Below, piece after piece: positions 2,581-56,094 of a stretch of 64,000 nucleotides of DNA. The DNA is from a virus. How positions within the stretch are numbered: the stretch's first letter is position 1; every line of letters starts with the position of its first letter. The notes below the pieces were generated by a model. That model made no database searches. It worked only from the letters and a program-made list of their open reading frames with translations, and was not told the origin of the DNA. The position numbers and the translations under genes are program-made. Location: IMG/VR virus record IMGVR_UViG_3300045996_002337, positions 1-64,000 of that record; one strand, written 5' to 3'.

Positions 2581-3306
2581 TCAGTACTTGATGCCCAGCG
2601 CATCGCGCAGCGTCTGAAGATCACCTGAACCGTTGTACTCGAAGGCGATGTACTGGTCACAGTCGATCATGATCTCGGAGTCTGAAACAACTGCCTTGTC
2701 AAGATCATTGATCGTGTACTTCTTGCTCTCCATCCACTTGCCAACCAGCTCTGGATCAAAGCCTTCCTGTTCCTGATACTTGCCTGGCTTCTTGAAGATG
2801 TTGACCACGTCATTGCCTTCACGTTGCCACTGCTCATCAAAGACGTTGTTGTACAGGTCCATTACGTTTGGTGACCAGGTGTAGGTGAACTGCCCCACTG
2901 GAAAGAGCACGCAGTTGTGATTACCGTATCCCTGGGCGGTGCTACGCCCACGTTCACCATAGCAGAAGACGGCCTGGGATCGAGCTTTGATGCCCTTCTC
3001 TTCTTCAAACCAGTCGTCGATGACCTTGCTAAGCTTGGGGCTCGTGCTCATCGCTTCTCTGTCCTTGCGAACGGGCATAAGATAAACTGCCCAATCGTCG
3101 TCATTTTGGCTGCCGCTGTCACCGACCGTCACCGTACCTTGGTAATTCTTCAGCTGCTTTACACCGCGGTAGAGCAGGCCCTTCTTCCCAGACCGCTTAA
3201 GAAACGGCATGCAGTATTTTTCAATGAGCTGGCGCACGGTCATGTCCTTGCCCTCTAGCGTCATTGGGCCCTCAGTGAGGAACTCCTTGAATGTCTTATG
3301 CGTCAT
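2581..3306 (-). CDS. Packaged ADP-ribosyltransferase-like protein (R-S-E type), copy A
   Basis: A 241-residue protein. The start is set at MTHKTFKEFLTE, which is a capsid-targeting leader with an expected gp21 cut after LTE; it overlaps the preceding gene by 11 bases. ART-like motifs in order: LLYRG (Arg47, NAD-binding arginine), VRKDRE (80-84), RSQAVFC (Ser110, S-motif), FPVGQFTYTWSP (135-146), and SEIMIDC (Glu211, likely catalytic) followed by a YIAF strand. The layout matches R-S-E mono-ADP-ribosyltransferases such as T4 Alt and ModB, though it is much shorter than Alt (682). NAD-dependent modification of host proteins or RNA is inferred. Confidence 0.75.
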   Translation of the reverse strand: MTHKTFKEFLTEGPMTLEGKDMTVRQLIEKYCMPFLKRSGKKGLLYRGVKQLKNYQGTVTVGDSGSQNDDDWAVYLMPVRKDREAMSTSPKLSKVIDDWFEEEKGIKARSQAVFCYGERGRSTAQGYGNHNCVLFPVGQFTYTWSPNVMDLYNNVFDEQWQREGNDVVNIFKKPGKYQEQEGFDPELVGKWMESKKYTINDLDKAVVSDSEIMIDCDQYIAFEYNGSGDLQTLRDALGIKY

Positions 3307-3775: not shown

Positions 3776-4560
3776 GGAAGCTGATCCAGTTGGAATGGTG
3801 TTGGGCCCTCAGGATCGCGATCGGTAATTTCAACCTGCGCGTAAGGGGTGCCGAATGGGGTAATGTTTCCAGTGTCATCGACTTCAACAACGTTCATAGA
3901 GCCAATATCGCCGATCTGAATAATGATCTTACGGACCAAGTCATCCTTCACACCCATTGGAATGCTTAGCCAAATTGGGATGGTGAAATTCAGCGTCCAA
4001 ACAATCATACGACGGTCAGTTCCCGACGGGTAGTTTTCCTCATTGGAAATGTCATCAAGTGAAACAGTTGTGATTCGCGTCCAATCGAAGGCGCCATCTG
4101 ACTTCTGAATCTGCAGGTCCGGGTTAAAGAGCACGAGGATCTGTTCCAAGATCTGGTGCATTTGCTGCGTATTGGACGCGTAGATTGAAAGCTCCATCGT
4201 CATGTTGTATGGAACTGGCATCACGCGCTTGACAACGGTCAGATCATCAGGAAACACTCCACCAGTCCGCATTGTAACGCGCTGGTCAATCATGCCTGGG
4301 GACCTACGGCGCTCATCAGCTCTTGCCAAGCCTGTCATGTAGGCGGCCATGGTTGGTAACGAGAATGAGCGATTGGCAGTGTTGCCAGACATGAGCGCGG
4401 CAACAACGCGATCTTTGTTCCCAATTACGATTGGCACAGAGATGAACTCGGGAACGTCGCACTCCCCAATGCCAGTTTGCACCTGAAGTCCATGAAAGAT
4501 GGAGACGAACTGCAGCATGTACTGCCGTAGCTGTGCGTCGTAAAAGTAGTGATTGATCAT
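3772..4560 (-). CDS. gp15: Proximal tail sheath stabiliser / tail terminator (T4 gp15 family)
   Basis: The 262-residue protein (T4 gp15 is 272) forms the ring that ends the tail and docks to the neck. Its start, INHYFYDAQLRQYMLQF, parallels T4 gp15 FGYFYNSSFRRYATLM. MELSIYASNTQQMHQILEQIL parallels the T4 segment MIYELSIFTRYEDDMFQIVEQIL. WTLNFTIPIW matches the later beta strand. It is separated from gp14 by four ART genes, unlike T4, where 13-14-15 are adjacent. Confidence 0.85.
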   Translation of the reverse strand: MINHYFYDAQLRQYMLQFVSIFHGLQVQTGIGECDVPEFISVPIVIGNKDRVVAALMSGNTANRSFSLPTMAAYMTGLARADERRRSPGMIDQRVTMRTGGVFPDDLTVVKRVMPVPYNMTMELSIYASNTQQMHQILEQILVLFNPDLQIQKSDGAFDWTRITTVSLDDISNEENYPSGTDRRMIVWTLNFTIPIWLSIPMGVKDDLVRKIIIQIGDIGSMNVVEVDDTGNITPFGTPYAQVEITDRDPEGPTPFQLDQLP

Positions 4561-5225
4561 TTAATGCCTAGAAGTTTTTCGAGAAGCCCACGATGCTCCT
4601 CATATTCAAACGCGTAGTATTTAGTGCAGGCCACCATGACTTCCATGCGGCCCTGAACGGCTTTTTCCAAACCGTGATTCTGATAATCCATCTTTGTCAT
4701 AAAGAGGTCGATACCTTCTTCCGCATCTATTGTGGAGTTCAGGGGGCCGTGCGTCCAATCCCTGCCGGCAGCTTCAGCGTACAGATCAGGAACCCGTGGA
4801 GACCAGACGTATTTGAAGGTGCCAGTTGGAAAGATGATGTAGGGATCGCCGTAGTTTCTGGCAGCTCTAACACCGGCTAGAGAGCTTCCGGTGCAGAAAA
4901 CAGCAGAGGACCTGGCAGCAATGTCGAAGTTATTCTTGAACCAATTGTTGATTAGCTTGTGATCGCTTTCACTCATGTCAGATGGCTTGCGATCCTGGCG
5001 AACGTCCAGTTCATGAAAAGTGACCTTACGTTCTTCAGGAGCTTCGGGGTTTGGAAGGGCGAGGTGGCGCGCACGGTCTACTCCCTTCATACCACGGATC
5101 AAGAACCCTTGCCGTTTTGACTCCTGTAGAAAAAACGAACAGTCACGCTCTAGCATGTCCTTGAGCGCGTCGTTCCCCATGGCGGAAGTTTCCTCGGCCT
5201 CAAGGAATTTTTTGAATGTAATCAT
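4557..5225 (-). CDS. Packaged ADP-ribosyltransferase-like protein (R-S-E type), copy B
   Basis: A 222-residue protein starting MITFKKFLEAEE, a capsid-targeting leader. Motifs: FLIRG (Arg44), VRQDRKPSD (75-83), RSSAVFC (Ser106/107), FPTGTFKYVWSP (132-143), MEVMVAC (Glu195) and YYAFEY. All are in the same order and spacing as the other copies. The Arg motif has Ile where most copies have Tyr or Trp before RG. It overlaps gp15 downstream and copy C upstream by ATGA. Paralogues are divergent at sequence level, so the array is old rather than a recent duplication. Target unknown. Confidence 0.75.
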   Translation of the reverse strand: MITFKKFLEAEETSAMGNDALKDMLERDCSFFLQESKRQGFLIRGMKGVDRARHLALPNPEAPEERKVTFHELDVRQDRKPSDMSESDHKLINNWFKNNFDIAARSSAVFCTGSSLAGVRAARNYGDPYIIFPTGTFKYVWSPRVPDLYAEAAGRDWTHGPLNSTIDAEEGIDLFMTKMDYQNHGLEKAVQGRMEVMVACTKYYAFEYEEHRGLLEKLLGIK

Positions 5226-5866
5226 AGAGGTATTGCGAGATAAGTTTTGCAGCCTAGCATTATTTCCATACCACTATCGTCATAGATGGCGTTACCGAGT
5301 TCGCCATCCTGGTATTCACCGATGATGCTTTTTGTCTCTGCTGCTATCTTTGCCAGATCTTCTGCAGAATACTCTAGATTTGGTGGGCGCTTAGGAACTT
5401 TAATATCGCCATGCAGCCGAAAAATCTTGTATGTCAAGTCAGGGATAGCTGGGTTCCACAGATATTTGAAGTTGCCAATAGGCACGATCTGATGAAGTTT
5501 GCCAAAATCTGTAGCGCCATGTTTTCTCTCTTTACTAAAGCAGAAGACACCCTGAGAGCGGGGTTTCCAGCCAAATTTTTCATTGAACTGATCGTCAATG
5601 AGCTTTGAAATTTGTGGATGCGTATCCAGCGGCTTGCGATCAGTGCGTGCGGTTTTGATTAGGCAGGTTTTTATCTCACCATCAACGTTTAGCTTAACTT
5701 TTTTGTCACCATCAGATGGATTCAGCCCGCGGTACAATGGATACTCAAAGGGATCAGAAGGATCGCCATCAACCTCTGAGAGAAATGGGCGGCAGTTGTC
5801 GATGATAAAATCAGCAAGATCTATTGGCGCATCTGCCTCGGACAGGAATTTTTTGAATGTAATCAT
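5222..5866 (-). CDS. Packaged ADP-ribosyltransferase-like protein (R-S-E type), copy C
   Basis: A 214-residue protein with leader MITFKKFLSE followed by Ala, a good gp21 site. Motifs: PLYRG (Arg46), ARTDRKPLD (73-81), RSQGVFC (Ser104), VPIGNFKYLWNP, then SGMEIMLGCKTYLAIPL with Glu201 as probable catalytic residue. It is closest to copy D: both share TCLIKTART and the LGCKTYLAIP ending. It is translationally coupled to its neighbours by ATGA overlaps. Confidence 0.75.
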   Translation of the reverse strand: MITFKKFLSEADAPIDLADFIIDNCRPFLSEVDGDPSDPFEYPLYRGLNPSDGDKKVKLNVDGEIKTCLIKTARTDRKPLDTHPQISKLIDDQFNEKFGWKPRSQGVFCFSKERKHGATDFGKLHQIVPIGNFKYLWNPAIPDLTYKIFRLHGDIKVPKRPPNLEYSAEDLAKIAAETKSIIGEYQDGELGNAIYDDSGMEIMLGCKTYLAIPL

Positions 5867-6498
5867 ACGGGAATTGCCAAGTAAGTTTTGCAGCCAAGCA
5901 TGATTTCTTTAGCTTGACCAAGGATTGCGCGCTCTAGATCAGCGTCTGTGTATGTTGCGACAAGGTCTTCAATGTACGGTTTAATTTGTTCAAGCTCTTT
6001 GGGCGAGTAGGGATCGTGCTTTGCGCGCTTCTTCATATTCGAGCCTTTGAGAATACGATGCATACTATTTGTAAAGTCTCTCACATCGGGGCTCCACACG
6101 TATCTGAACTCACCAATAGGCACGATCTGGTATAGACGACCAAAATCCGACGATAGACTTTTACCGCCCTCGCCATAGCAGAAAACAGATTCTGTTCGCG
6201 GTTTCCATGCGAACCTATTCTTTAGCAGCCGGTCGGCCATGTCAGACAGCTGAGAGTGTGTGTCTCTAGGCTGGCGATTAGTCCTGGCCGTTTTGATCAA
6301 GCACGTCTTGACCTCATCCTGAACAACCATTTGAATTTTTTGCCCACCATCTTCAGCTAGACCTCGATACAGGGGGAACCCGAACGCGTCAGTGTAGTCG
6401 ATGCCCAGCTCCTCAAAGAATGGCATGCAGTTCTCTTGAAGAAAGTCATCTAAATCTGTAGGTGCAGATTCTAAAATGAATTGCTTAAATGTTTTCAT
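5863..6498 (-). CDS. Packaged ADP-ribosyltransferase-like protein (R-S-E type), copy D
   Basis: A 211-residue protein. The start is set at MKTFKQFILE (a longer frame exists), because this leader closely resembles T4 MKTYQEFIAE and the ATG overlaps the preceding stop as ATGA. Motifs: PLYRG (Arg45), ARTNRQPRD, PRTESVFC (Thr102 and Ser104 at the S-motif), VPIGEFRYVWSP, KEIMLGCKTYLAIPV (Glu198). It is the nearest relative of copy C. The Ser/Thr change in the S-motif is tolerated in known ARTs (STS/STT). Confidence 0.75.
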   Translation of the reverse strand: MKTFKQFILESAPTDLDDFLQENCMPFFEELGIDYTDAFGFPLYRGLAEDGGQKIQMVVQDEVKTCLIKTARTNRQPRDTHSQLSDMADRLLKNRFAWKPRTESVFCYGEGGKSLSSDFGRLYQIVPIGEFRYVWSPDVRDFTNSMHRILKGSNMKKRAKHDPYSPKELEQIKPYIEDLVATYTDADLERAILGQAKEIMLGCKTYLAIPV

Positions 6499-7196
6499 TC
6501 TGATAGCGCCTCGTAGATGCAACCCTCAAGATCATCAGCGGAAAAACCAGGCTTCAGTGGGAAGGCGAGATATCTATCACAAAGAAGCATCATCTCGCCG
6601 CGACCTTTTCTTAGCCCTTCAACGTTTGACCCCTTCTTAAAGTCGAGCTCCGTTAACCGGCTTTTTATCCATTCAATTTGCATATCTGCGGTTGGCTCGT
6701 TACCTGCTCCAAGCTTCTTGTTCCAATATTCTTCTCCGCCAGCCGGGCCAGAGCTTTCGCCGCTTGCCAAATTTGGAAAGAGAGAAACTGTTAGATCTGT
6801 TGCTTCATCTGACCAGTAGAGTGAGTATTTTCCCACAGGAATGATGGCGTGTGGTCGACCATATGCCCCAGCCAGGATTTTTTCCGGGTAAACAAAAAGT
6901 GAGTTAGACCGAAGTCGAACTCCGAATTTGTCTTCCAAAAAGTCATCAACTACATTGTGCGCCCACAAGGGGGTGTCTCGCGGTTCACGATCTTTACGAA
7001 CAGTGCCAAATTTGACATCCGCCTTTAGCTCATCGCGGACAGACCACTTCTCATATGATGATTGTGCACCATCCATTCCACGCCAAAGCATGTAATTTGA
7101 TTCGACGATGTCCTGACAGGCAGGCTGGCAGTTCTCACGCAAGAAGGCAACAAGCTCCCGCTTTTCTTCAGATAGAAATTGTTTGAACGTAATCAT
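6495..7196 (-). CDS. Packaged ADP-ribosyltransferase-like protein (R-S-E type), copy E
   Basis: A 233-residue protein with leader MITFKQFLSE. Motifs: MLWRG (Arg39), VRKDREPRD (67-74), LRSNSLFVY (Ser97/99), IPVGKYSLYWSD, GEMMLLCDRYLAFPL (Glu201). It differs from the other copies by a C-terminal tail of about 20 residues (ADDLEGCIYEALSE). Its start codon shares one base with the gp14 stop (TAATG), so it is coupled to gp14 translation. Confidence 0.75.
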   Translation of the reverse strand: MITFKQFLSEEKRELVAFLRENCQPACQDIVESNYMLWRGMDGAQSSYEKWSVRDELKADVKFGTVRKDREPRDTPLWAHNVVDDFLEDKFGVRLRSNSLFVYPEKILAGAYGRPHAIIPVGKYSLYWSDEATDLTVSLFPNLASGESSGPAGGEEYWNKKLGAGNEPTADMQIEWIKSRLTELDFKKGSNVEGLRKGRGEMMLLCDRYLAFPLKPGFSADDLEGCIYEALSE

Positions 7197-9085
7197 TAGA
7201 TTTTCTTTGCAGTTGGCGAGATGCGCTCGGCCATGTTAAAAATTTCCCGCTGCGAGGCCGTGTGAGCAGAGCGTTTGTTGCGGCGATCAGTTTCCACGTA
7301 CAGCCACTTGTTCTTCACCTGAGAGAATTTATAGAGACGGGCGGGCAGGTTCAAGTTTGGAGCGTACTCTAACCTGAAGTACGTGCCGTCGGCAATCCCA
7401 GCTACATCAGGGAGACGGTCGAAGCCAGTCATGTACGAACCGCCATCGGGTGGCAGACCATCCTCTACGTAGAGGCCGACGCCGTCATATGAACCTGGTT
7501 GGTTAAAGCGGTTGGTGCCAGAGGCGAACTCACGTGTATTCGTCCCAGTTTCGGGAACGGCTTGAACCGCCTCAGCTTGATTATGTTCAGTAACGGTTAG
7601 CGGTGCTGTTTCAATCTGCTCGATGCCATCAAAGAAGCGACCATCGTCAATGATGTACTTTTGGGTGTCAATCGTTCCAAGCAGGTCGCGGTGTTCCTGC
7701 GAAGGGATAAGCTGCTGCGCCTGAAAACGGTAAATTGATGGAACCCAGCCAGTGGTGTAACCATCTGCGGCCCAGCCCGTATCGGTAACCTCTAGAAATT
7801 TACGAACTGGGCGAAGGTGCTGGTCATATTGCATCTCGGAAGGTAGCTCTAGAACGTCTCCAACTACGATTGGGCGGCCAAGCTTTCGAACCATGTCAGC
7901 AAAAGAGGCAGTGAAGCTGTAGATGTCGGCCATCTGAAAACCAAACTTTGACAGGTCTGAGACAGCATCAAATGGGGTGTACTGAACCTTGAGCTGAATT
8001 GACGCTTTTGCATAGTCTCGATCGCGGTTCTCCATGAACAGCATGTCCTGGATGTCATCGAGAGTCGTAGCTTGATAATCAAACAGCTCGAGCTTTGTAA
8101 CCGCCCAAGAACTGTCAGACGTGGCTCCAGCAAATGAGGTTGGCACAAGGCGCCAGTAGCGGGACGCCGCCGATTGCTTGATGCGGATAACCGGCGAGGT
8201 TGCAGTGTTTGGAATGTTGACAACATCAACGCGCTTCCAATCCATCTCAACTGGCAGCATGAAGCTATCATCCTCTGCAAATGGGACAGAGCCTGCAGAT
8301 ACAGTAAACGATCCAAGCGTGCTGTCAAACTGACGGTTCACAGTCGCTTCACCAAGAATTGAAGTGCCAGTTGCAGACGTGAATGAGACCATGAACTTCG
8401 TTGGGGAAGTTGCAAACAGCATGAAGGCGCCCGGCTGGCTTTCAATTCCTTGTTTGAATCCACCTACCGCACCGTTACCAACGTTTGTGGAGCCGACGAC
8501 GATCTTTAGCGGGTTGATAGAGAAGTTTCCATCTGCGCGTTCGATTCGAACTTGAAGGGCGCGAGATGCAGCAGTAGCTTGCGTAATTCGAAAGGCGGTG
8601 ATGTGCTTCGCGTCAGGCGTTCCAGGGACTGTCTCTGGTTGTCCGTACGATGTTAGTCGAACTCCAAAATCATAGCCAATGTATGCAGGTTCTTGCAGTA
8701 CGGCCAAGCCTTGCTGTGGAGATGACCATTCAGATTCGGTGTCGTCGAAGGCAAGCGAAGTGTCTGATGAGCCCAGCGGTTTTCCCGTGCCAGTTTGATC
8801 AATCAGCTTTCCCTGCTCATGCACGCCAAGCAGCTTAAAGACGTTGAGGGGGGCGCCAGAGATGTTCAGCGATTCAGCGATGAGCCCCTGCTGATACGTG
8901 TTTTCTGTTACCGCGCATGCACCCTGTGTAATTGTGTACGTGCCGACGCAAAACTCTGGCGGCACGTACGTTCCTGGGGGCGTTGGGGTACCAGGAACAG
9001 GCGGGAGTCCACTGTCGGGCGTAGTTGGATTGTTGAATGACCCGGCAGCGTCAAGGCATTCATCTAAGGTTGTACGATCAGCCAC
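7196..9085 (-). CDS. Neck protein, gp14-like, with large N-terminal extension
   Basis: A 629-residue protein between gp13 and gp15 homologues. Residues about 375-480 carry the gp14-like part: MADIYSFTASFADMVRKLG, then VVGDVLELPSEMQY, then VPSIYRFQAQQLIPSQEH, like the T4 gp14 block GDLIYFPMDNSLFEI...DPFYQLGQNAIRKI. T4 gp14 is only 256 residues. The N-terminal extension looks like a discoidin (F5/8C)-type beta sandwich (YIGYDFG, ITAFRIT, WRLVPTSFAG, WAVTKLELFDY). It is split by the shared beta insert found in the sheath (VGNG ... GSFTVSAGSVPFAEDDSF). It may form neck appendages that bind sugars. The gp14 call rests on context and weak motifs. Confidence 0.65.
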   Translation of the reverse strand: MADRTTLDECLDAAGSFNNPTTPDSGLPPVPGTPTPPGTYVPPEFCVGTYTITQGACAVTENTYQQGLIAESLNISGAPLNVFKLLGVHEQGKLIDQTGTGKPLGSSDTSLAFDDTESEWSSPQQGLAVLQEPAYIGYDFGVRLTSYGQPETVPGTPDAKHITAFRITQATAASRALQVRIERADGNFSINPLKIVVGSTNVGNGAVGGFKQGIESQPGAFMLFATSPTKFMVSFTSATGTSILGEATVNRQFDSTLGSFTVSAGSVPFAEDDSFMLPVEMDWKRVDVVNIPNTATSPVIRIKQSAASRYWRLVPTSFAGATSDSSWAVTKLELFDYQATTLDDIQDMLFMENRDRDYAKASIQLKVQYTPFDAVSDLSKFGFQMADIYSFTASFADMVRKLGRPIVVGDVLELPSEMQYDQHLRPVRKFLEVTDTGWAADGYTTGWVPSIYRFQAQQLIPSQEHRDLLGTIDTQKYIIDDGRFFDGIEQIETAPLTVTEHNQAEAVQAVPETGTNTREFASGTNRFNQPGSYDGVGLYVEDGLPPDGGSYMTGFDRLPDVAGIADGTYFRLEYAPNLNLPARLYKFSQVKNKWLYVETDRRNKRSAHTASQREIFNMAERISPTAKKI

Positions 9086-10013
9086 GTGATCTCCGTTGGG
9101 TGTGAGTTAGGGCATCAGCCGCGCTGATCTTATCAGGTTCAACGCGCCCGTCTTCCTCATCTTCAGGTTCGTCGATCCAGAACTGGCTCACCAGCAGCTT
9201 ATGAAGCTTAGGTGCATTTTCCTTAGACCAATCGAGAATCTCAAATTGATCAGTTGCTGAAATGCTGCTTTGATTGACGGGGATGAAAAGCGCCTCGCCA
9301 TCGACCCACACCTCGCCCTTCGTTGAGGTGGGCAGGTTTCCACCAGTCGCGAAGTCGTAAAGTGAAGGCGTAACAAGCTTTTCCCAAAGATCGAAGAGAT
9401 TGTCGACTTTGTGTCTGTTCATCATATCAACCAGCGTGGCGGGTGGGCCACGGAAGCCTTTCGCGCGAAGCTTATCATCCCACTGCGAAACGCTGGCCTG
9501 CTTAAGGCTGTCCCTAAGCTCGGCAAAGCTGGTCGGATAGTCATTCAGTTCAAGAAATTCAAGTGCGGCCTGAGTCATTTCATTGAAGTGCAGCAGGCGG
9601 GTGTCGTCAATCTTGGTCGCCCAGATGTCGGGGGTCTTGACTAGACCAATTTTTGCGTCATCCTTTGGGATAACAATGAACTGTTCGCCGTATCGAGCTG
9701 CTTGTTCAGGATTTGTCGTCGTGATGAATGCATTACCCCGACGTGGCAGGCCCTTCCAATCAGGGTGGTTGTCCATCCACAGGGTGTAGTAGTTGGCAGT
9801 GTTCGCACTTTTACGCGGTGCTCCGTGGCTTGCATCGCCATGTGTGACGCCCTGGTGTCGTTGGCCACCCGCCCCACGAAACAGGAAGACCCCCTTCTTC
9901 AGGTAGTCTTCAGCATAGTTTTCCATCCACTTGACGGCGTAGTCGACCTCAATCGGCGCTACACGTGACTGGCGCTCTTCTTCCTCACGGAGATATTGCT
10001 TAAAGGTGATCAT
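9078..10013 (-). CDS. Packaged ADP-ribosyltransferase-like protein, second subfamily, copy F
   Basis: A 311-residue protein with leader MITFKQYLRE. It forms a pair with copy G, apart from copies A-E. Shared features are FRG/VRG (Arg46 here), a block RKSANT..NYYTLWMDNH..WKG (67-88), a Ser/Thr strand GNAFITTT (Thr98/99), YGEQFIVIPKDDAKI (108-122), and a C-terminal GEVWVDGEALFIP that could hold the catalytic Glu. A long helical region separates these parts. R-S-E chemistry is likely but less certain than in A-E. Confidence 0.65.
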   Translation of the reverse strand: MITFKQYLREEEERQSRVAPIEVDYAVKWMENYAEDYLKKGVFLFRGAGGQRHQGVTHGDASHGAPRKSANTANYYTLWMDNHPDWKGLPRRGNAFITTTNPEQAARYGEQFIVIPKDDAKIGLVKTPDIWATKIDDTRLLHFNEMTQAALEFLELNDYPTSFAELRDSLKQASVSQWDDKLRAKGFRGPPATLVDMMNRHKVDNLFDLWEKLVTPSLYDFATGGNLPTSTKGEVWVDGEALFIPVNQSSISATDQFEILDWSKENAPKLHKLLVSQFWIDEPEDEEDGRVEPDKISAADALTHTQRRSRG

Positions 10014-10870
10014 GACGTGATTTCAATCTCATGCTTATTGAGGAATTCTTGGAAGAGCGCTGCAGCAGCGCTATCGCCGTGCGCAAGGCTATAGGAAATA
10101 AAGATGCAGCGTCCTTGAATGAAAAGCTCGCGCTCGCCATCCGCCAGGTATTTACTTGGGTTCGAAAAGAGCTCGAATTCAGAAGGCTCGATGACCTTCT
10201 CGAAAAGCTCATATACGCTCTCAACTGCCGCGTCGTCAATAAGGTTCATCAAGTCTAGCAAGTAGGGCGCGTTACCAGAACGGCTGTCCTTCTCCTCATT
10301 ATACAGAAAGCTTACATGATCAAACGTAAGCTTCTTCAAAGTTCTAACCAGCTCAGGGTACGTTTCAGGCGGCTCTTGCCCGTTTGCCTTGATGCCGCTG
10401 TGCACAATTTTCATGAAACGCGCCAGGTTTCCGGAAGGCATGATGTTGCGTAGTTCTTCGAATGACGTCCAAAGATCCTCATCAGCGCAGGCGGCGATCT
10501 TTGCATCATCAAATGGAAAGACGAGGTACGGCTTACCAAAACCACTTGCTATATTTGATGTTTCAGAGCAGATGAATGAACGAGACCGCTTTGGCCAGCC
10601 CTTCCAAGCTTCATGGTTGTCCATCCACAGCGTGTAGTAATTGAACGTGTTCGCAGAACGGCGAGCTTCACCCGCTTCGCTGTCACCAATTCCAGCTTCA
10701 CCATTTAGATTGAAGCCACGAACAATATCACCAACACCCGGCGCTTTTAGAAATTTTTGACAGTACTTTTCAATAAGGTCAATTGCCTCTACGATTTCGA
10801 GAGGTGACACTCGAGATGGTGCGTCGTATTGAATTGCACCCTCACCAAGAAATTGTTTGAATGTGATCAT
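10010..10870 (-). CDS. Packaged ADP-ribosyltransferase-like protein, second subfamily, copy G
   Basis: A 286-residue protein with leader MITFKQFLGE, encoded right after gp13. It matches copy F in RRSANTFNYYTLWMDNHEAW (70-89), RSRSFICSET (95-104, S-motif), FGKPYLVFPFDDAKI (111-125) and a C-terminal GERELFIQGRCIFIS block. VRG supplies Arg51. The conserved SANT..NYYTLWMDNH block has no counterpart in copies A-E and could bind a distinct target. It overlaps copy F by ATGA. Confidence 0.65.
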   Translation of the reverse strand: MITFKQFLGEGAIQYDAPSRVSPLEIVEAIDLIEKYCQKFLKAPGVGDIVRGFNLNGEAGIGDSEAGEARRSANTFNYYTLWMDNHEAWKGWPKRSRSFICSETSNIASGFGKPYLVFPFDDAKIAACADEDLWTSFEELRNIMPSGNLARFMKIVHSGIKANGQEPPETYPELVRTLKKLTFDHVSFLYNEEKDSRSGNAPYLLDLMNLIDDAAVESVYELFEKVIEPSEFELFSNPSKYLADGERELFIQGRCIFISYSLAHGDSAAAALFQEFLNKHEIEITS

Positions 10871-19507: not shown

Positions 19508-19786
19508 TTAGGCGTTGAAGCCGGGGACCAGGGCGTTCTGCACCTTGGCAAGCAGGGTTTCAAACTTCAGGCGGGTCAGATCAGACTTGGCGCCGACCTT
19601 GAGCTTGACGGCGTGAGCGACCAGCTTGTCCTTGTCAGACACGACACCACCGAGAACGGCGTTCGTCCAGGCGTTGCCGAAGGAGAAGCGCTGACGGGTT
19701 TCACGCTGAAGGAGGTACTTGGCCTTCTTGACAGCTTGTTCGGCGGTGGTCGTGTTGGAAACGGTGGTGTTAGTAGTGGTGTTCAT
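19508..19786 (-). CDS. Hypothetical protein
   Basis: A 92-residue protein with a Thr/Asn-rich start (MNTTTNTTVSNTTT) followed by a basic helical body. It is first in its operon, under the promoter at 19822-19850. The start was chosen at MNTTTN because AAGGCTTC precedes it. Confidence 0.55.
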   Translation of the reverse strand: MNTTTNTTVSNTTTAEQAVKKAKYLLQRETRQRFSFGNAWTNAVLGGVVSDKDKLVAHAVKLKVGAKSDLTRLKFETLLAKVQNALVPGFNA

Positions 19787-19821
19787 TTTGAAGCCTTTCA
19801 AAGATTGGTTGGTATAGATGA

Positions 19822-19896: not shown

Positions 19897-20403
19897 ATGA
19901 TCACATTCAAGCAATACCTTCGTGAAGACACCCTCCCAAAACTGGCATGGGATCCAACCCCAAAAATCGGTTGGTGGCGAGATGCTGACCCACTTCGTCT
20001 ATATCATGGAACCAACCTAGCGCACCTAGATTCATTTGCTGAGCACGGCATGAACCGTCCAGACCCTCGAACAGGAATGTACTCATTCGCCTTTGAACCA
20101 TTCACGGCCCGGGCTTTCGCGATCATGGGCGGAGAGGCACGCCTTCTAGCGTCCAAGGCAAAGCCAGGTGTAGTACCCGAAAATCAACGGGTTGTGATCG
20201 TTTTCGATATTCCGCAGGATTGGATTGAACGCCATCAAGATCTTGATCTACGTGGCAATGATGAAGAACACCTGTCCCGTCTTCAGGACAAATCAAAGTA
20301 TGACGGCTGGAAGGGTTCTGATCAGCAGTACTATCAGCTGTGTGAGCTGCGCGTGGACGCAGCTGTGCCTGCGAAGTTCATCGCAGGCTACATGCTCAAA
20401 TAA
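19897..20403 (+). CDS. Packaged ART-like protein of a different (H-Y-E-like) type
   Basis: A 168-residue protein with leader MITFKQYLRE, identical in its first ten residues to ART copy F. The body differs: LRLYHGTNLAHLDSFAEHGM (His37), MYSFAFEPFTARAFAIMGGE (61-80), RVVIVFDIP, and YQLCELRVDAAVPAKFIAGY (Glu150). YHGT, then SF...A..yA, then E-[LV]-x-V...I fits the H-Y-E branch of ADP-ribosyltransferases (PARP/KptA/DarT-like) better than R-S-E. It is a lone plus gene in a minus region. NAD use and target are inferred. Confidence 0.7.
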   Translation: MITFKQYLREDTLPKLAWDPTPKIGWWRDADPLRLYHGTNLAHLDSFAEHGMNRPDPRTGMYSFAFEPFTARAFAIMGGEARLLASKAKPGVVPENQRVVIVFDIPQDWIERHQDLDLRGNDEEHLSRLQDKSKYDGWKGSDQQYYQLCELRVDAAVPAKFIAGYMLK

Positions 20404-20955
20404 TCATACCGCTTCCGTCTGCTTCAGAAGCCCTGCCTCATGGATGATCTGCAGCATCTCACGGTATGGTGCAAGCAGCCGGTTGCGAACAGAGAGCTTC
20501 TTGCTCATTGCTGCCTTCTTCAGTGCGTCGCGGTATAGCGCCTTAAACGAGCGCACGTTGACGTTATGAAGGTTCTTTCGAATTAATTCACGATCCTCGC
20601 GGATCTCATTTCCCCGCAGTGAATTGCAGGACGCACACGCGGCTCTGTAGTTCGAAGTGTGGTTGATGCCGCCCAGAGAAACTGGAACGATGTGGTCCTT
20701 CGTGAGAGAGTGAAGGGCCCCGTTCTTATGAATGAACGGGGTCACGGTCATCTGGACCTGCGTGTCTTTAGAGCCAACCCACGCGATCCAGCGATCTGCC
20801 TTTGAGTTGCAGATGTGACACAACAAGTCACGCCCCTTCCAGAACGTGGCGATGCTCACCTTCGTTCCCTGAATCACGACTTGGCCTTTGCCGCTGCTCA
20901 GAAGCAGCTCCTGCCCGGCCTCAAGGCTAAACTCGCGAAAGTAGATTTCTTGCAT
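20404..20955 (-). CDS. HNH endonuclease
   Basis: A 183-residue protein. LLCHICNSKADRWIAWVG gives a first CxxC, then LTKDHIVPVSLGGINHTSNY followed by RAACASCNSLRGNEI gives the HNH core (His near 93, Asn, His) with the second CxxC. This is a zinc-braced HNH nuclease, free-standing and convergent with the ART at 19897. It may be a homing endonuclease or a packaging-linked nuclease. Confidence 0.85.
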   Translation of the reverse strand: MQEIYFREFSLEAGQELLLSSGKGQVVIQGTKVSIATFWKGRDLLCHICNSKADRWIAWVGSKDTQVQMTVTPFIHKNGALHSLTKDHIVPVSLGGINHTSNYRAACASCNSLRGNEIREDRELIRKNLHNVNVRSFKALYRDALKKAAMSKKLSVRNRLLAPYREMLQIIHEAGLLKQTEAV

Positions 20956-30522: not shown

Positions 30523-31137
30523 TTACTTACCTTTGCGAAGCGCTTCAAGGAATGCAGACATTTCTTTCTTAAAGAATGCCTGCGCTTTTGGATCGTGGAC
30601 CATTGCTTCAGCAAGCGTCATGACCTTCTTGGAACCCATTGCTTCAGCGATGACGTCAGGGTAAGCGTCAGGTGCCGAAGGCTGGGAAACGATGTCGACT
30701 GTTACGAACGAGAAGTCGGCAACTTGGCCAGACTCATTCACGTTACCCGTACCACGCGACGAGACGCCGAGGCGAACGCCACCCTCAATCAGGCCTTTGG
30801 CGATGTTACCAGAAGGGGTGTTGAGCAGCTTCATCTTGCCGACGGCGTTGTTGCCGTCCATGCGGCACTCAGTGATAGCGTGCGAGACGTTCGCAAGGTT
30901 GATCGAGAGAACATCAGGGTGATTCAGTTCACCGAGAATGTAGTGGCCTTCCTTGATGCGCTTAGCAGCTTCATCAACGGCGCGAGAAATTTCCTCGAGG
31001 GGGTAAACACGGCCGTTACCGTTCTTAAGGGCGGCCTGCATCATGATACCGTTGAGGTACAGTTGACCTCCAACGTTCTGTTCAGTGAGGCGCGCAGCAG
31101 TTGGATTCAGGTGTTCGGAGAGAAGTTGTTGCTTCAT
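30523..31137 (-). CDS. gp21: Prohead protease (T4 gp21 family)
   Basis: The 204-residue maturation protease (T4 gp21 is 212). LYLNGIMMQAALKNGNGRVY followed by P, then GHYILGELNHPDVLSIN (catalytic His73), then VRLGVSSRGTG (catalytic Ser126/127), then DIVSQPSAPDAYPD match gp21. It cuts after (L/I)xE and should process gp23, gp22 and the leader-bearing internal proteins listed here. Its own start, MKQQLLSE, also contains such a site, consistent with self-activation. Confidence 0.95.
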   Translation of the reverse strand: MKQQLLSEHLNPTAARLTEQNVGGQLYLNGIMMQAALKNGNGRVYPLEEISRAVDEAAKRIKEGHYILGELNHPDVLSINLANVSHAITECRMDGNNAVGKMKLLNTPSGNIAKGLIEGGVRLGVSSRGTGNVNESGQVADFSFVTVDIVSQPSAPDAYPDVIAEAMGSKKVMTLAEAMVHDPKAQAFFKKEMSAFLEALRKGK

Positions 31138-48916: not shown

Positions 48917-51004
48917 ATGCCATCATCGACCCTCTATAATCCGCTTGATGAGTTCAACTCATACTCTGTTCACTACGTCATGCTCGCCTGCCGAACAACA
49001 GAGGATGCGCGTGTCTTCACCGACGAGAAAAATAACGCCGCAACTCTGCAGGCAATTGAGCAGGTTAACCTGCTCGGTGAAGCCGTGCCATATGGAAATG
49101 CAAACACCGCGTTCCTCATGATGGACACGCGCCGCTTTTCTCAGTTCACTATCGACAACCTGAAGTATGAGGTACTGATCAATGGCATTGAAAAGGCGGG
49201 CTCCCATGGAAACCTTGCCACGACGATTAACATGACGATTCTAGATTCCGTCGGAATCTCATTCATCAACTTCTTACAGTGGCTCATGGACGAGAAGATG
49301 CAGGCCAATTTTGATGGCATCATCTACATGCTGCGAGTCATCTTCGTTGGCCATAAGTCTGATGGTTCGACCTCAACGGTCCAAACTGTTACGATTCCAA
49401 TGCACCTGACCAAGCTGGAACTCAACCTTGATTATGCGAAGGGTGCGTATGAGGCGGAGTTCATGCCTAACGTAAACTTCGACGCGCAGGAACACTCTCG
49501 CTGGCTCAACATCTCATCTGCGTCTTCGTACTTCACGGGAGCTGGCAACAACACCCTAGGCGGCATGGTTGACAGCTTTGAGGCCGCGCTGAATGATGCC
49601 TCAACGCGGTACTACAATGACGCTTCGTCGCTGTTGGAGAAGGCAGGTAGAACCAGAAACGCGAAGGGCAAGTTTGGTCGACAGGTACAGTACATGATTA
49701 CCATTCCTGAAGCCTGGCGCGCATTTGAGTTCACCGGCTCTGGAACTGCCGGGGCCACCGAAACTGTCTTTAAGAAGCAGCTCGCGGAACGCGATGGAAC
49801 TGCTAAGACAGAGGTAGCTAAACCTGCAAAAGCCACTGACTCTCACATGTCGGTTGAATCGGGCATGCAGATCACCGAGGTTCTTGACCTCATGTTTCGC
49901 CAGGTCAAAGAAATTGCAGACCTGGGAAATGGTAGAAAAACGCAGAAGGGCGAAGCTGTTACCTTCTACAAGCACATCGTCGGGATTACGAGTGACGACA
50001 ACGTTGTGGTTGTTCACGTTGACGTCGTCCCTTTCGTGGTTCCAAACGTTGTGGTCGAGAAGCAAGCAACCGCGCAACCTGTTTCACAGAATGAAGCTGA
50101 CTTCTACGACATCGACGAGAATGGTGTTAGACGCCCACGTAATTATGCCGAGTTTGACTACATCTTCACGGGCAGAAACAAGGACATCTTGAATTTTGAC
50201 ATGAAGCTTCAAGATCTTCAATGGATGCTTGCGTCTAACCTGGAGCTTGGGGCCGGGGCGATGGCTGGTGTGACAGAGGCTGGACAGTCTAATGAGAAAG
50301 AAATTGCACCCAACAAGACCGCAGAACTGGTGCGGCTTCGCGCCTATGATCCGCTGCTGTTACCAAAGAACACCCAAGCCGAGCTTGAAAACTTCAACCG
50401 TTATTCATCACTGCTTCAGCGGGATGACGATGGTGGCGTTATCAAGTCTGCGCAAGATTACACACGTAATCTATCAATGTTCTATGCCGCATCGCCGATC
50501 ACCACGGTTGTAACGATCCGTGGCAACCCGGACATCATGACGAAGTTTAACATTGGGTCATTTTTACCGCACCGCCTCGCTGTCACAAATACTGGATCGG
50601 GAAACACCACAGTAAATGTTTCTGAGAAACAGAAATATCGCCGTGAGTTGGAAGAGAAGATCATCAATGACAACACCACCGCTAGGGGCGAACGTACCAT
50701 CGTGCGCGATTCTGATGGTAACCTGGCAGTAGCAACCCTTGGTTCTGGGAGCTACACCACGTCCCCGGTCTTTGTCAAGATTAACATCAAGGGCCCAAAC
50801 GTAAACTTTCTCACGAGCGAGCTTGTCAAGGGCGAGGAATTCTCAAAACAAATTCTCTACGACAACTATTACGTGGTAATGAAGGTTACAAACATCATAG
50901 AGGCTGGCGCGTTCAGACAAGAGCTGGAGCTTTTCTCCCACAACGTGTTTGGGCAGGGTAAGCTTTCGGCGGCGACCCAAGAAAAATCGGTGAAAACGAT
51001 ATGA
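48917..51004 (+). CDS. gp27: Baseplate hub protein (gp27-like)
   Basis: A 695-residue protein (T4 gp27 is 391) directly before gp5, the usual partner. The N-terminal 200 residues are beta-rich (MTILDSVGISFINFLQWLMD). The C-terminal half has NMSMFYAASPITTVVTIRG-type hub strands (YTRNLSMFYAASPITTVVTI, then GNPDIMTKFNIGSFLP). The hub trimer links the tail tube to the spike. The middle insertion (about 200-420) is extra. Confidence 0.75.
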   Translation: MPSSTLYNPLDEFNSYSVHYVMLACRTTEDARVFTDEKNNAATLQAIEQVNLLGEAVPYGNANTAFLMMDTRRFSQFTIDNLKYEVLINGIEKAGSHGNLATTINMTILDSVGISFINFLQWLMDEKMQANFDGIIYMLRVIFVGHKSDGSTSTVQTVTIPMHLTKLELNLDYAKGAYEAEFMPNVNFDAQEHSRWLNISSASSYFTGAGNNTLGGMVDSFEAALNDASTRYYNDASSLLEKAGRTRNAKGKFGRQVQYMITIPEAWRAFEFTGSGTAGATETVFKKQLAERDGTAKTEVAKPAKATDSHMSVESGMQITEVLDLMFRQVKEIADLGNGRKTQKGEAVTFYKHIVGITSDDNVVVVHVDVVPFVVPNVVVEKQATAQPVSQNEADFYDIDENGVRRPRNYAEFDYIFTGRNKDILNFDMKLQDLQWMLASNLELGAGAMAGVTEAGQSNEKEIAPNKTAELVRLRAYDPLLLPKNTQAELENFNRYSSLLQRDDDGGVIKSAQDYTRNLSMFYAASPITTVVTIRGNPDIMTKFNIGSFLPHRLAVTNTGSGNTTVNVSEKQKYRRELEEKIINDNTTARGERTIVRDSDGNLAVATLGSGSYTTSPVFVKINIKGPNVNFLTSELVKGEEFSKQILYDNYYVVMKVTNIIEAGAFRQELELFSHNVFGQGKLSAATQEKSVKTI

Positions 51005-52488: not shown

Positions 52489-55400
52489 ATGGCGCTCAGA
52501 ACAACAAATTCAGCGGAGTCTTGGGAAAAGATCTACCAAGCCTACAATGAGGTTAGCTTCGTTTCATATGACTTCGACAGCATCAAGCAGTCGCTGATTG
52601 ACTACACCAAGACGTACTACCCGGAGGTTTTCTCAGATTACATCGAGTCGTCTGAGTTCATCGCCATGCTTGAAATGTTCGCCTATGTGGCAGAACAGCT
52701 GGCGTATCGGGTTGACATGGTTGCGCATGAAAACTTTATTACGACTGCGCAGCGCAAGCAGTCAATTCTACGTCTGGCCAAGCTCATCTCATACAAGGCC
52801 ACGCGGAACATCCCTGTACGCGGCCTAGTAAAGTTCAACAGCGTTACCACGACTGAAAGAATTCTCGATTCACGCGGAACTGACTTGTCCGGGCTGACAA
52901 TCACCTGGAACGATCCGAACAACGCAAACTGGAAAGAGCAATTCATTCTAGTAATGAACCGCGTTCTCTCAAATCGTTTTGGTCAACCATCAAAGTCGTT
53001 CCAAATTGGCGACGTGGTGATGGACCTTTATTCATTGAGAAATGATCCTGACGGTCTCCGCAATGGTGTCTTTCCATTCTCTGCCGCCGCCGGTCTTGAC
53101 ACCTATCCGATGGAAATTGTTCCATCTGACCTCGATGAAAACGGCCCATTTGAACGTGAGCCTGATCTAACCTCGCCGATGTCAATCATCTACGCCAATG
53201 ACGGCATTGGCGACGGCTCTGATTACACGGGCTTCCTTGGATATGTGAAGCAAGGAACGCTCACGCGCATCGATTACAACATCGCAGCTAAACAGCCAGA
53301 TCGACGCGTCGATTTTCAGCCAACTGACATCAACCAAACGGACGTTTGGGTTCAAAAGATCGAGAACGATTCGGTTTCTGAACGCTGGAAGCAAGTAAGC
53401 ACCATCTCTGAACAGAACTTGGTGTTTAATGAACTGCGCGATACCCGTAAAAAGTTTGAAGTTGACACCCGTGAAAATGACCAGATCACGGTGATCTTTG
53501 GCGACGGTGACTTCTCGGACATGCCACATGGCCAGTTCCGTTTTTGGATGCGTCAATCAGCGAATCGCTCGATCGTTGTTCAGAAGAACAAGATCCAAAA
53601 TGAGCCGTTCGGTTTCTCGTACACATCTACGCTAGGCAACACTGAGACGTGCACTTTTACATTTGGTTTGACCACAACCCTGCAGAACGGGGCTGCATCA
53701 GAAACGATTGAACACATTCGTCAGTCCGCCCCATCGACGTACTATGCGCAGAACCGCATGGTTAACGGGCAGGACCATAACACCTACATGCTCAAGGACC
53801 CGACGATTATTCGGTTGAAGACCATCAACCGAACGTTTGCGGGCCAGCCAAAGCACATTGATTGGCATGACGCGTCAGGCAAATATGAAAACATCAAGCT
53901 GTTTGGTGATGATCTGTCCATGCAGTACACGCTTGGGATCAGTTCGCAGACGACGTCAGTGTCGGGTCAATCGCTTATTGACTCGGTCATTGAACCGCTG
54001 TTGTCATCAAGCGGAGTAATCAACGCGCTCCTCCATACCTCAGCCACCGACCCAGTAATGGCAGGGGTCATCAGCGCCCCTCGCCGTAAGTTCATTGAAG
54101 ACAACCGCGGCAACATTTACCGGAACAAGGATGGAGCACCAGTTGCACTAATTTCTACTGCGACGGCCGACGGCTCATTGAAAGAAAAAACGGCTATTCA
54201 AGGCCTGATTGATCGACACTGGTACGGTGAGCCACTTGAGTACGTTCAGGACGAAGCATCTGGCACAGTGATGGCCCGCATCCCAGATCCTGATGATTTT
54301 CCAAAGGACGACAGCCGGATCTACGCCGCCTCAGTCCCTCGTACTATTGATGGCGTAAACAAATTCCCGCCCGGCGACATCGGCTCGGGCCTTCAGCCGA
54401 TCGCTGAGCAGGACTATTTTGCGCTTCGTTACAACCGTTACATGCAAGGCATCGGCAATGGGGACATCGTCATTCAGAGCGCCCCGCAAGGCACGACGCC
54501 GGCCGAGGTGTGGACGATCGAGGTGGCTGCCGATGGTGTAACGATTGATGTTCGCTCAAACCTGCGCGGTACATTCCCATCTGGTTCGATTGGCACGGAT
54601 TATTACATTCAACCTGAAGGGTTTCAAGATCGCCGCTTGTTCTTTACGATCACGCAAGGGACGACTGCTTTTGAGCAGGGTGATGCTTTCATTCTTGAAA
54701 ACGGTGACGACCTGTCCGCCACACCACCATCGCCACGGGCAACCTTCCCTTGGCTTCAAAATGGCTCAATGTTCTCGCCGACCGCACCAGTCGTTAACCT
54801 CAATGGTTGGTGGGAAATTCTCGGCTATTCTCAGCTGCCAGACTATGCATCAGGCATCCTCGAGAGCGAGCACCACGATCTGAAGTTCACGTCTTCGGCG
54901 GCGGATCAGGGCGACGCGCTTAAACAACACAGCTGGATGATCTTCATTCGTAAGGTGCGTCAGCAGCCAACAAACACAATCATTGGCTATGAAATTCACA
55001 ACCGTGATTTGAAGCTGACGGTGACATCACCGACTACCAAGTTTTGGTACAACTCCGTTGACCAAGTTCTTGATAATGAAACAAAGAATCGGGTGTTCGA
55101 CAACATCAAGGTTCTCCGTTCAAATAAAGATGCGCAGGGCAACGTGCTGGCAAAAAGTCAGAAATACGATGTGGTTGGTGCGGTTAAGAACGAAGATGGC
55201 GTCATTGACTTCAATTCACTTGAGGTGGTTCCAACTGACCTGCTTCAGGAAGACAGCTCTGGTGACCTCGTACCTGATCGTCTGCTGCAGTTTGAAACAT
55301 TCGCTGCAAGCTCCACCGCAGAGGCAAGCTATGAGTATTTTGAGTTGGAGAACCCAGGTCAGGTGCTCATCGAGCAGGCAGCCCTCGACGCCGCAAACTC

Positions 55401-56094
55401 GGCATGGGAAGTTGGGGCATTTGTTGACAACAGCCTCACCTACGGCCGCCGCCTAACTATGCCCGGCGAGGGCGGCGAAGGTCTTGATTTTATGTGGCAG
55501 CACTTCTCACCACACACGAACATCATCGACCCTTCACCAACAAACATTCATGATGCGTATGTCATGACACGCGGTTATTATGACAATGTAATCAGTTATG
55601 TGCGCGGCACATCTACATATGCGCCGGCCCCACCGACGCCGCTTGAGCTTCGCAACTCTTACGGTTACCTCTTGGAAAACAAGATGCTGTCGGACACGAT
55701 CGTGATGCATCCAGGCAAGATTCGGCTGCTCTTTGGAGGGCTGGCTGAGCCACAACTTCGCGCGAAGTTTAAGGTCGTTCGCTCGCAGGCCGGCACTCTC
55801 ACGAACGAGCGCCTCAAGGAAGAAATTTTAAACGTTATCAATACGTTCTTTGACATCGACAACTGGGACTTCGGCGATACATTCTACGCCACAAAGCTGA
55901 TCTCGTTGATTCATCAACGCCTGCCCGCAGATATTGCCTCTGTGGTGTTGGTGCCGGTTTACAGCACGAACTCATTCGGCTCGCTGTTCACAGTCGAGCC
56001 AGGCTTTGATGAAATCCTACAATCGGCAGCTGAGCTTAGCGACATTGAGGTTGTTGAATCCCTTACGCCAACAATCATTAGGCAGGCCAAATGA
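52489..56094 (+). CDS. gp6: Baseplate wedge protein (gp6-like), very long
   Basis: A 1,201-residue protein (T4 gp6 is 660). The N-terminal region is gp6/gpJ-like: DSIKQSLIDYTKTYYPEVFS, ESSEFIAMLEMFAYVAEQLA followed by YRVDMVAHENFI, TAQRKQSILRLAKLISYKAT. The C-terminus has PGKIRLLFGGLAEPQLRAKF, then LISLIHQRLPADIASVVLVP, again wedge-like. Residues about 650-745 carry the shared beta insert (GIGNGDIVI ... LFFTITQGTTAFEQGDAFIL). gp6 forms the inner baseplate ring. Confidence 0.9.
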   Translation: MALRTTNSAESWEKIYQAYNEVSFVSYDFDSIKQSLIDYTKTYYPEVFSDYIESSEFIAMLEMFAYVAEQLAYRVDMVAHENFITTAQRKQSILRLAKLISYKATRNIPVRGLVKFNSVTTTERILDSRGTDLSGLTITWNDPNNANWKEQFILVMNRVLSNRFGQPSKSFQIGDVVMDLYSLRNDPDGLRNGVFPFSAAAGLDTYPMEIVPSDLDENGPFEREPDLTSPMSIIYANDGIGDGSDYTGFLGYVKQGTLTRIDYNIAAKQPDRRVDFQPTDINQTDVWVQKIENDSVSERWKQVSTISEQNLVFNELRDTRKKFEVDTRENDQITVIFGDGDFSDMPHGQFRFWMRQSANRSIVVQKNKIQNEPFGFSYTSTLGNTETCTFTFGLTTTLQNGAASETIEHIRQSAPSTYYAQNRMVNGQDHNTYMLKDPTIIRLKTINRTFAGQPKHIDWHDASGKYENIKLFGDDLSMQYTLGISSQTTSVSGQSLIDSVIEPLLSSSGVINALLHTSATDPVMAGVISAPRRKFIEDNRGNIYRNKDGAPVALISTATADGSLKEKTAIQGLIDRHWYGEPLEYVQDEASGTVMARIPDPDDFPKDDSRIYAASVPRTIDGVNKFPPGDIGSGLQPIAEQDYFALRYNRYMQGIGNGDIVIQSAPQGTTPAEVWTIEVAADGVTIDVRSNLRGTFPSGSIGTDYYIQPEGFQDRRLFFTITQGTTAFEQGDAFILENGDDLSATPPSPRATFPWLQNGSMFSPTAPVVNLNGWWEILGYSQLPDYASGILESEHHDLKFTSSAADQGDALKQHSWMIFIRKVRQQPTNTIIGYEIHNRDLKLTVTSPTTKFWYNSVDQVLDNETKNRVFDNIKVLRSNKDAQGNVLAKSQKYDVVGAVKNEDGVIDFNSLEVVPTDLLQEDSSGDLVPDRLLQFETFAASSTAEASYEYFELENPGQVLIEQAALDAANSAWEVGAFVDNSLTYGRRLTMPGEGGEGLDFMWQHFSPHTNIIDPSPTNIHDAYVMTRGYYDNVISYVRGTSTYAPAPPTPLELRNSYGYLLENKMLSDTIVMHPGKIRLLFGGLAEPQLRAKFKVVRSQAGTLTNERLKEEILNVINTFFDIDNWDFGDTFYATKLISLIHQRLPADIASVVLVPVYSTNSFGSLFTVEPGFDEILQSAAELSDIEVVESLTPTIIRQAK

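Follow-up and report, generated by a model that had tools for sequence, protein, structure and literature searches.

The gene at positions 19897-20403 (plus strand) of the window, by which we mean the whole 64,000-nucleotide stretch analysed here, probably encodes a single-domain ADP-ribosyltransferase (ART) that carries a T4-type capsid targeting sequence (CTS), is packaged in the phage head, cut by the gp21 protease and injected to act on a host macromolecule, and whose nearest fold is the catalytic lobe of Tpt1/KptA. It belongs to a new, so far unlisted, small phage ART subfamily with a His...Glu signature, placed in a delivery scheme that is already known. Comprising the first 64 kb of a virus record of 349,660 bp, the window comes from a giant, or jumbo, T4-like bacteriophage whose T4-like genes encode gp23, gp20, the tail sheath and the gp21 prohead protease. 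The open reading frame starts with ATG, has 168 residues, begins MITFKQYLREDTLPKLAWDP and is the single plus-strand gene in surroundings of minus-strand genes; a convergent HNH endonuclease gene (20404..20955, minus; PF14279, E 6.8e-11) immediately adjoins it. The frame is a real gene, since relatives exist in other phages at 47-55% identity.

Two IMG/VR contigs carry such relatives, one of 331 kb (L002) and one of 48 kb (L028), and so do Vibrio phage Kuja and some 43 further Vibrio phage records of the Ackermannviridae type. None were found in plasmids or in one-per-species cellular genome contigs at the search sensitivities used, and scanning viral contigs with the Vibrio and L028 proteins gained no further lineage. 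An alignment of eight sequences, one of which (L025) is cut short at its N-terminus, so that its first two conserved blocks are missing, shows with small exceptions the blocks GWW, YHG, GM.S.A.EP[FY]TA.A, GGE, DQQ.YQ, E.R and P. Both motifs of the catalytic part that an earlier note on this DNA had read as YHGT ... E-L-R-V were located, at residues 36-39 and 150-153, respectively. His37 (20005..20007, plus) lies on the first core strand of the model (residues 33-40), is kept in all seven sequences that cover the position and aligns with the HGT of KptA/Tpt1, while Glu150 (20344..20346, plus) lies in strand 150-153 and is invariant in all eight. Published ART clades are H-H-h, H-Y-[EDQ] and R-S-E (PMC9503650). 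The family has its His in the first strand of the core and its Glu at the last motif, where the H-Y-[EDQ] clade has Glu, Asp or Gln, but the candidate for the middle residue, Tyr62 (20080..20082, plus), occurs in the window copy only and is Ile in the other seven sequences. For lack of a conserved middle Tyr we do not file the family under H-Y-[EDQ]; the "H-Y-E type" of the earlier note is thus right about His and Glu, but as a label it fits one sequence and not the family.

Some order is shared around these genes. The window gene immediately before the ART gene (19508-19801, minus) has a similar protein near the relative in the 331-kb contig (L002:3422-3793), a trace of common gene order. Downstream of the ART gene, that contig encodes a NUDIX hydrolase (PF00293, E 3e-11) and then an HNH endonuclease (L002:5605-6054 and L002:6083-6679), which suggests mobility and a small cluster of genes concerned with NAD/ADP-ribose.

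The AlphaFold2 model, built from a shallow alignment of four sequences, predicts an ART fold for the window protein (pLDDT 79.3, pTM 0.78), with leader residues 1-8 below pLDDT 50. Its best matches among solved structures are nearly all ARTs. Foldseek against the PDB ranked Tpt1/KptA, DarT, PARPs and ART toxins; the E-values were marginal, 1.6e-3 at best, but the probability for Tpt1 was 1.00. A second structure aligner gave Tpt1 (8tg4) a Z of 9.2 over 88 residues (rmsd 2.3), followed by TreX (6.8), PARP13 (6.3), DarT (6.0) and tankyrase (about 6). The fold prediction thus agrees with what the earlier note had anticipated, as does the likeness to PARP/KptA/DarT-like enzymes, the closest folds being the Tpt1/KptA catalytic lobe and then ART toxins, PARPs and DarT, the last at fold level only. 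In profile searches, the window protein matched ART-PolyVal (PF18760) with E 0.012 and 16.8 bits, below the Pfam cut-off of 31.2 bits, and four family members scored sub-threshold on KptA profiles (E 0.01 to 0.17), always at the YHGT motif, one of them, from a Vibrio phage (L003), also on the Pfam KptA model. ART-PolyVal and other head-packaged phage ARTs (PMC9503650) are likewise effectors thought to be injected, but they are large multi-domain proteins or MuF fusions, whereas the window protein is a lone leadered domain. Among predicted viral structures in BFVD, a neighbour is R9TEX3 (E 1.3e-5), which is probably ORF157 of Vibrio phage nt-1, a correspondence made by phage and length only. 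This PARP-like protein of 368 residues shares the YHGT motif and has a leader-like start (MKNLKSFMEE), but it can be aligned to the window protein over just 22 residues around YHGT and has large extra regions. ORF157 (L055:22583-23689) itself matches PF00644 with E 3e-5, just under the cut-off.

Two other readings of this fold have to be weighed against that of an active ART. One is that the protein is an RNA-repair enzyme, a cut-down version of the Tpt1/KptA RNA 2'-phosphotransferase of the H-H-h clade, with which it shares the YHGT motif and which provides both the closest solved structures and the closest sub-threshold profiles. Nevertheless, the structural alignment spans only Tpt1 residues of about 86-180, the C-terminal ART lobe, and a protein of 168 residues, leader included, leaves no room for the N-terminal lobe. 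In Tpt1, that N-terminal lobe carries catalytic residues. The window protein also differs from Tpt1/KptA in having Glu at the last motif and a capsid leader at its start, and we regard a repair function as very improbable. The other reading, which we hold to be unlikely though less so, is that the ART fold was kept and catalysis lost, so that the packaged protein would bind NAD, ADP-ribose or a host protein, for instance as a decoy or inhibitor. Ile at the middle position in seven of the eight members speaks for it, and so does the presence among the structural neighbours of the small protein CC0527 (2o0q), which we take to be a DUF952 protein without known activity. Against it, His37 and Glu150 are kept wherever they are covered, together with DQQxYQ and EP[FY]TA, as would be expected of an active site under selection.

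The case for packaging of this putative enzyme rests on its first ten residues, MITFKQYLRE (19897..19926, plus), which have the features of a T4-type CTS. In T4, the ten N-terminal residues of IPIII are enough for entry into the capsid; positions 4 and 7 serve targeting, positions 8 and 10 serve processing, and gp21 cuts after L/I-X-E (PMC9026906). The window leader has F4, Y7, L8 and E10, with L-R-E as the predicted cleavage site at 8-10, and the phage encodes a gp21-like prohead protease (Peptidase_S77; 30523..31137, minus; PF03420, E 5.4e-26), the enzyme expected to cut it. Given these key positions and the gp21 gene, packaging and cleavage are, by analogy with T4, our best inference. A loose leader pattern, sought in all six frames of the full record (699,256 residues), has ten matches; as nine of the ten stand directly behind a start codon, the leader at the start of the ART gene is not a chance occurrence.

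This arrangement has clear counterparts in T4. Its internal proteins IPI, IPII and IPIII begin with a leader of ten residues that has its key positions in common with the window leader and likewise ends in L/I-X-E for gp21, and they too are diverse proteins behind one leader (PMC9026906, PMC3012670), but they are not known to be ARTs, and the packaging of the window protein is predicted from its sequence. T4 Alt is a packaged ART, and the window protein is likewise expected to be packaged in the head, processed, injected and NAD+-using, whereas Alt belongs to the R-S-E clade and the window protein is far smaller, with a His...Glu signature. Phage ARTs in general are often head-packaged in myoviruses, as documented by genome context (PMC9503650).

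The same leader stands in front of several other proteins of this phage. Its leadered set comprises an ART-like array at 2.5-10.9 kb, two copies near 343-344 kb, the lone ART and a Zeta-toxin-like P-loop kinase at 342.5 kb (record positions 341793-342524, minus; L022:17793-18524; PF06414, E 2.9e-12; leader MITFKQFLDE). The array copies, all on the minus strand, begin with MITFKQYLRE (copy F, 9078..10013, an R...E protein of the R-type family), MITFKQFLGE (10010..10870), MITFKQFLSE (6495..7196), MKTFKQFILE (5863..6498), MITFKKFLSE (5222..5866), the leader-like MITFKKFLEAE (4557..5225) and MTHKTFKEFLTE (2581..3306). The first ten residues of the ART protein are identical to those of copy F (10/10), as had been noted earlier, and little else is shared: BLASTP gave a convincing alignment over residues 1-11 only, and in a profile-profile comparison of the ART family with the array family residues 1-6 aligned and nothing else. 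The proposal that one leader stands on unrelated catalytic domains is therefore borne out, and the kinase with the same leader strengthens it. The idea of such a leader as a means by which T4-like phages load diverse proteins has been published before (PMC9026906, PMC3012670): one review proposed that the targeting sequence allows T4-like phages to take in various proteins (PMC9026906), and an earlier one described the T-even internal proteins as a diverse set with only the targeting sequence in common (PMC3012670). A further enzyme type behind a capsid leader is a 528-residue Amidoligase_2-like protein (L032:8081-9664; G002:28081; PF12224, E 5e-10; leader MISFKQFLAE).

The array copies themselves are plausibly ARTs of the R-S-E type, judging from sequence and model. 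Arg46 and Glu234 are invariant in 13 sequences of the array family, and Rifampin ART (Z 5.0) headed the 11 weak matches of copy F in the second structure aligner, several others of which were ARTs too. On the other hand, the AlphaFold model of copy F is poor (pLDDT 62), Foldseek returned no significant match for it, and the middle motif, Ser in most copies, is Gly in copy F; the R-S-E label of the earlier note is suggestive for this copy and weakly supported. A scan with copy F alone gave no matches, and an array query against the three contigs carrying ART relatives gave none in a search that had no positive control. Homologous arrays are present in Agrobacterium phage Atu_ph07, whose copies begin with MRWEQLTE and similar sequences, and in Salicola phage SCTP-2. 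In Atu_ph07 gp053 (L053:9847-12183), a Zeta-toxin domain (PF06414, E 1.5e-14) and an ART-like copy of the array type form one fusion protein; in the window phage, each of the two activities has a leadered gene of its own. Virion proteomics of Atu_ph07, as described in PMC6102473, spans the homologous array region (CDS 31-76), with 29 proteins detected.

How the ART gene came by its leader is a separate question. A recent recombination graft of an array leader onto an unrelated gene would explain the 10/10 identity, and the HNH endonuclease that adjoins the ART gene in the window, with another near the L002 relative, fits such an event. The DNA argues otherwise: the leaders of the ART gene and copy F agree at 25 of 30 nucleotides, all five differences are synonymous, two random encodings under the codon usage of the phage would be expected to agree at 24.7 of 30 (sd 1.5), and the flanking bases are unrelated. 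Since the identity is at the codon-usage expectation and the flanks are unrelated, the shared leader is kept by selection acting on the peptide level, and its DNA does not have the appearance of a recent copy. Furthermore, the L028 orthologue, in another phage, starts with its own full leader (MLTFKQFIAE), and the pairing of leader and ART is thus old. A recent acquisition from the array is therefore not supported as a form of the leader acquisition proposed in the earlier note, and a graft seems a distinctly improbable origin. We consider it equally improbable that the ten residues are an ordinary part of the ART protein with no role as a packaging signal. Leader presence across the family is indeed not uniform, as the L002 relative starts with MKLFELQDQT, which has no L-x-E cleavage site, and the Vibrio relatives are annotated with leaderless starts. 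However, some ten further proteins of the source phage, the kinase among them, have the leader too, almost solely at their starts; it fits the T4 rules; and the low pLDDT over residues 1-8 is as expected of a detachable tail.

Under the reading that we prefer, that of a packaged and active ART, the protein would be synthesized late, its leader would take it into the prohead core, and gp21 would cut after L-R-E (residue 10), leaving a mature enzyme that begins at Asp11. The mature ART would be packaged with the DNA and ejected into the host, where it would use NAD+ to ADP-ribosylate a host macromolecule at an early stage of infection, thereby aiding takeover or blocking defence.

The Vibrio orthologues may point to another form of coupling between leader and ART. 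Those of the 144E46.1 type are annotated at an internal start without a leader, where there is a strong ribosome-binding site, and they lie directly downstream of genes for giant proteins with leader-like starts (MALFKQLVES, or MGLFKNLVTE in Kuja). The ART frame is open upstream, in the -1 frame, into the end of the giant gene (L003, L004, L005 and L026), and similarity to the L002 protein reaches into this stretch. The gene upstream of the ART frame in Kuja has A AAA AAG TAG at its end (L024:5955-5995), a classic -1 slip sequence, and the corresponding end in other Vibrio phages is GTA AAG TAG. Thus, a programmed -1 frameshift that fuses the Vibrio giant protein to the ART is possible. A bolder combination of these ideas, in which an unlisted ART subfamily delivered from the virion by a T4-type leader modifies not protein but nucleic acid within minutes of the onset of infection, as Tpt1/KptA and DarT, its closest folds, have RNA or DNA as substrates, and in which the Vibrio Ackermannviridae domain is perhaps coupled to a leadered giant protein by such a frameshift, strikes us as rather unlikely as a whole.

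If the window ART is packaged, a single tag would serve this phage to inject no fewer than three kinds of effector, namely the R-type ART-like array, the His...Glu ART and the Zeta-toxin-like kinase. The leader would then offer an inexpensive way to recognize injected anti-host proteins by sequence in metagenomic T4-like jumbo phages, in which most genes are unannotated. Leader-based loading was already known from T4; what is new is this subfamily of enzymes and the fact that it is paired with such a leader, and with it comes a small ART with a predicted mature N-terminus.

Some observations concern the rest of the window. Boxes of the form [ACG]ATAAATA at positions 2541, 12822, 15569 and 35679 (minus strand) lie 34-57 nt upstream of structural genes and resemble T4-type late promoters of the source phage. 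A late-promoter-like AATAAATA stands 12 nt before the ATG of the ART gene, too close when compared with those 34-57 nt, and is probably due to chance. Finally, a plus-strand block at 48917-51004 and 52489-56094 encodes a baseplate wedge protein (phrog_10646) and a virion structural protein, while the head genes are on the opposite strand.
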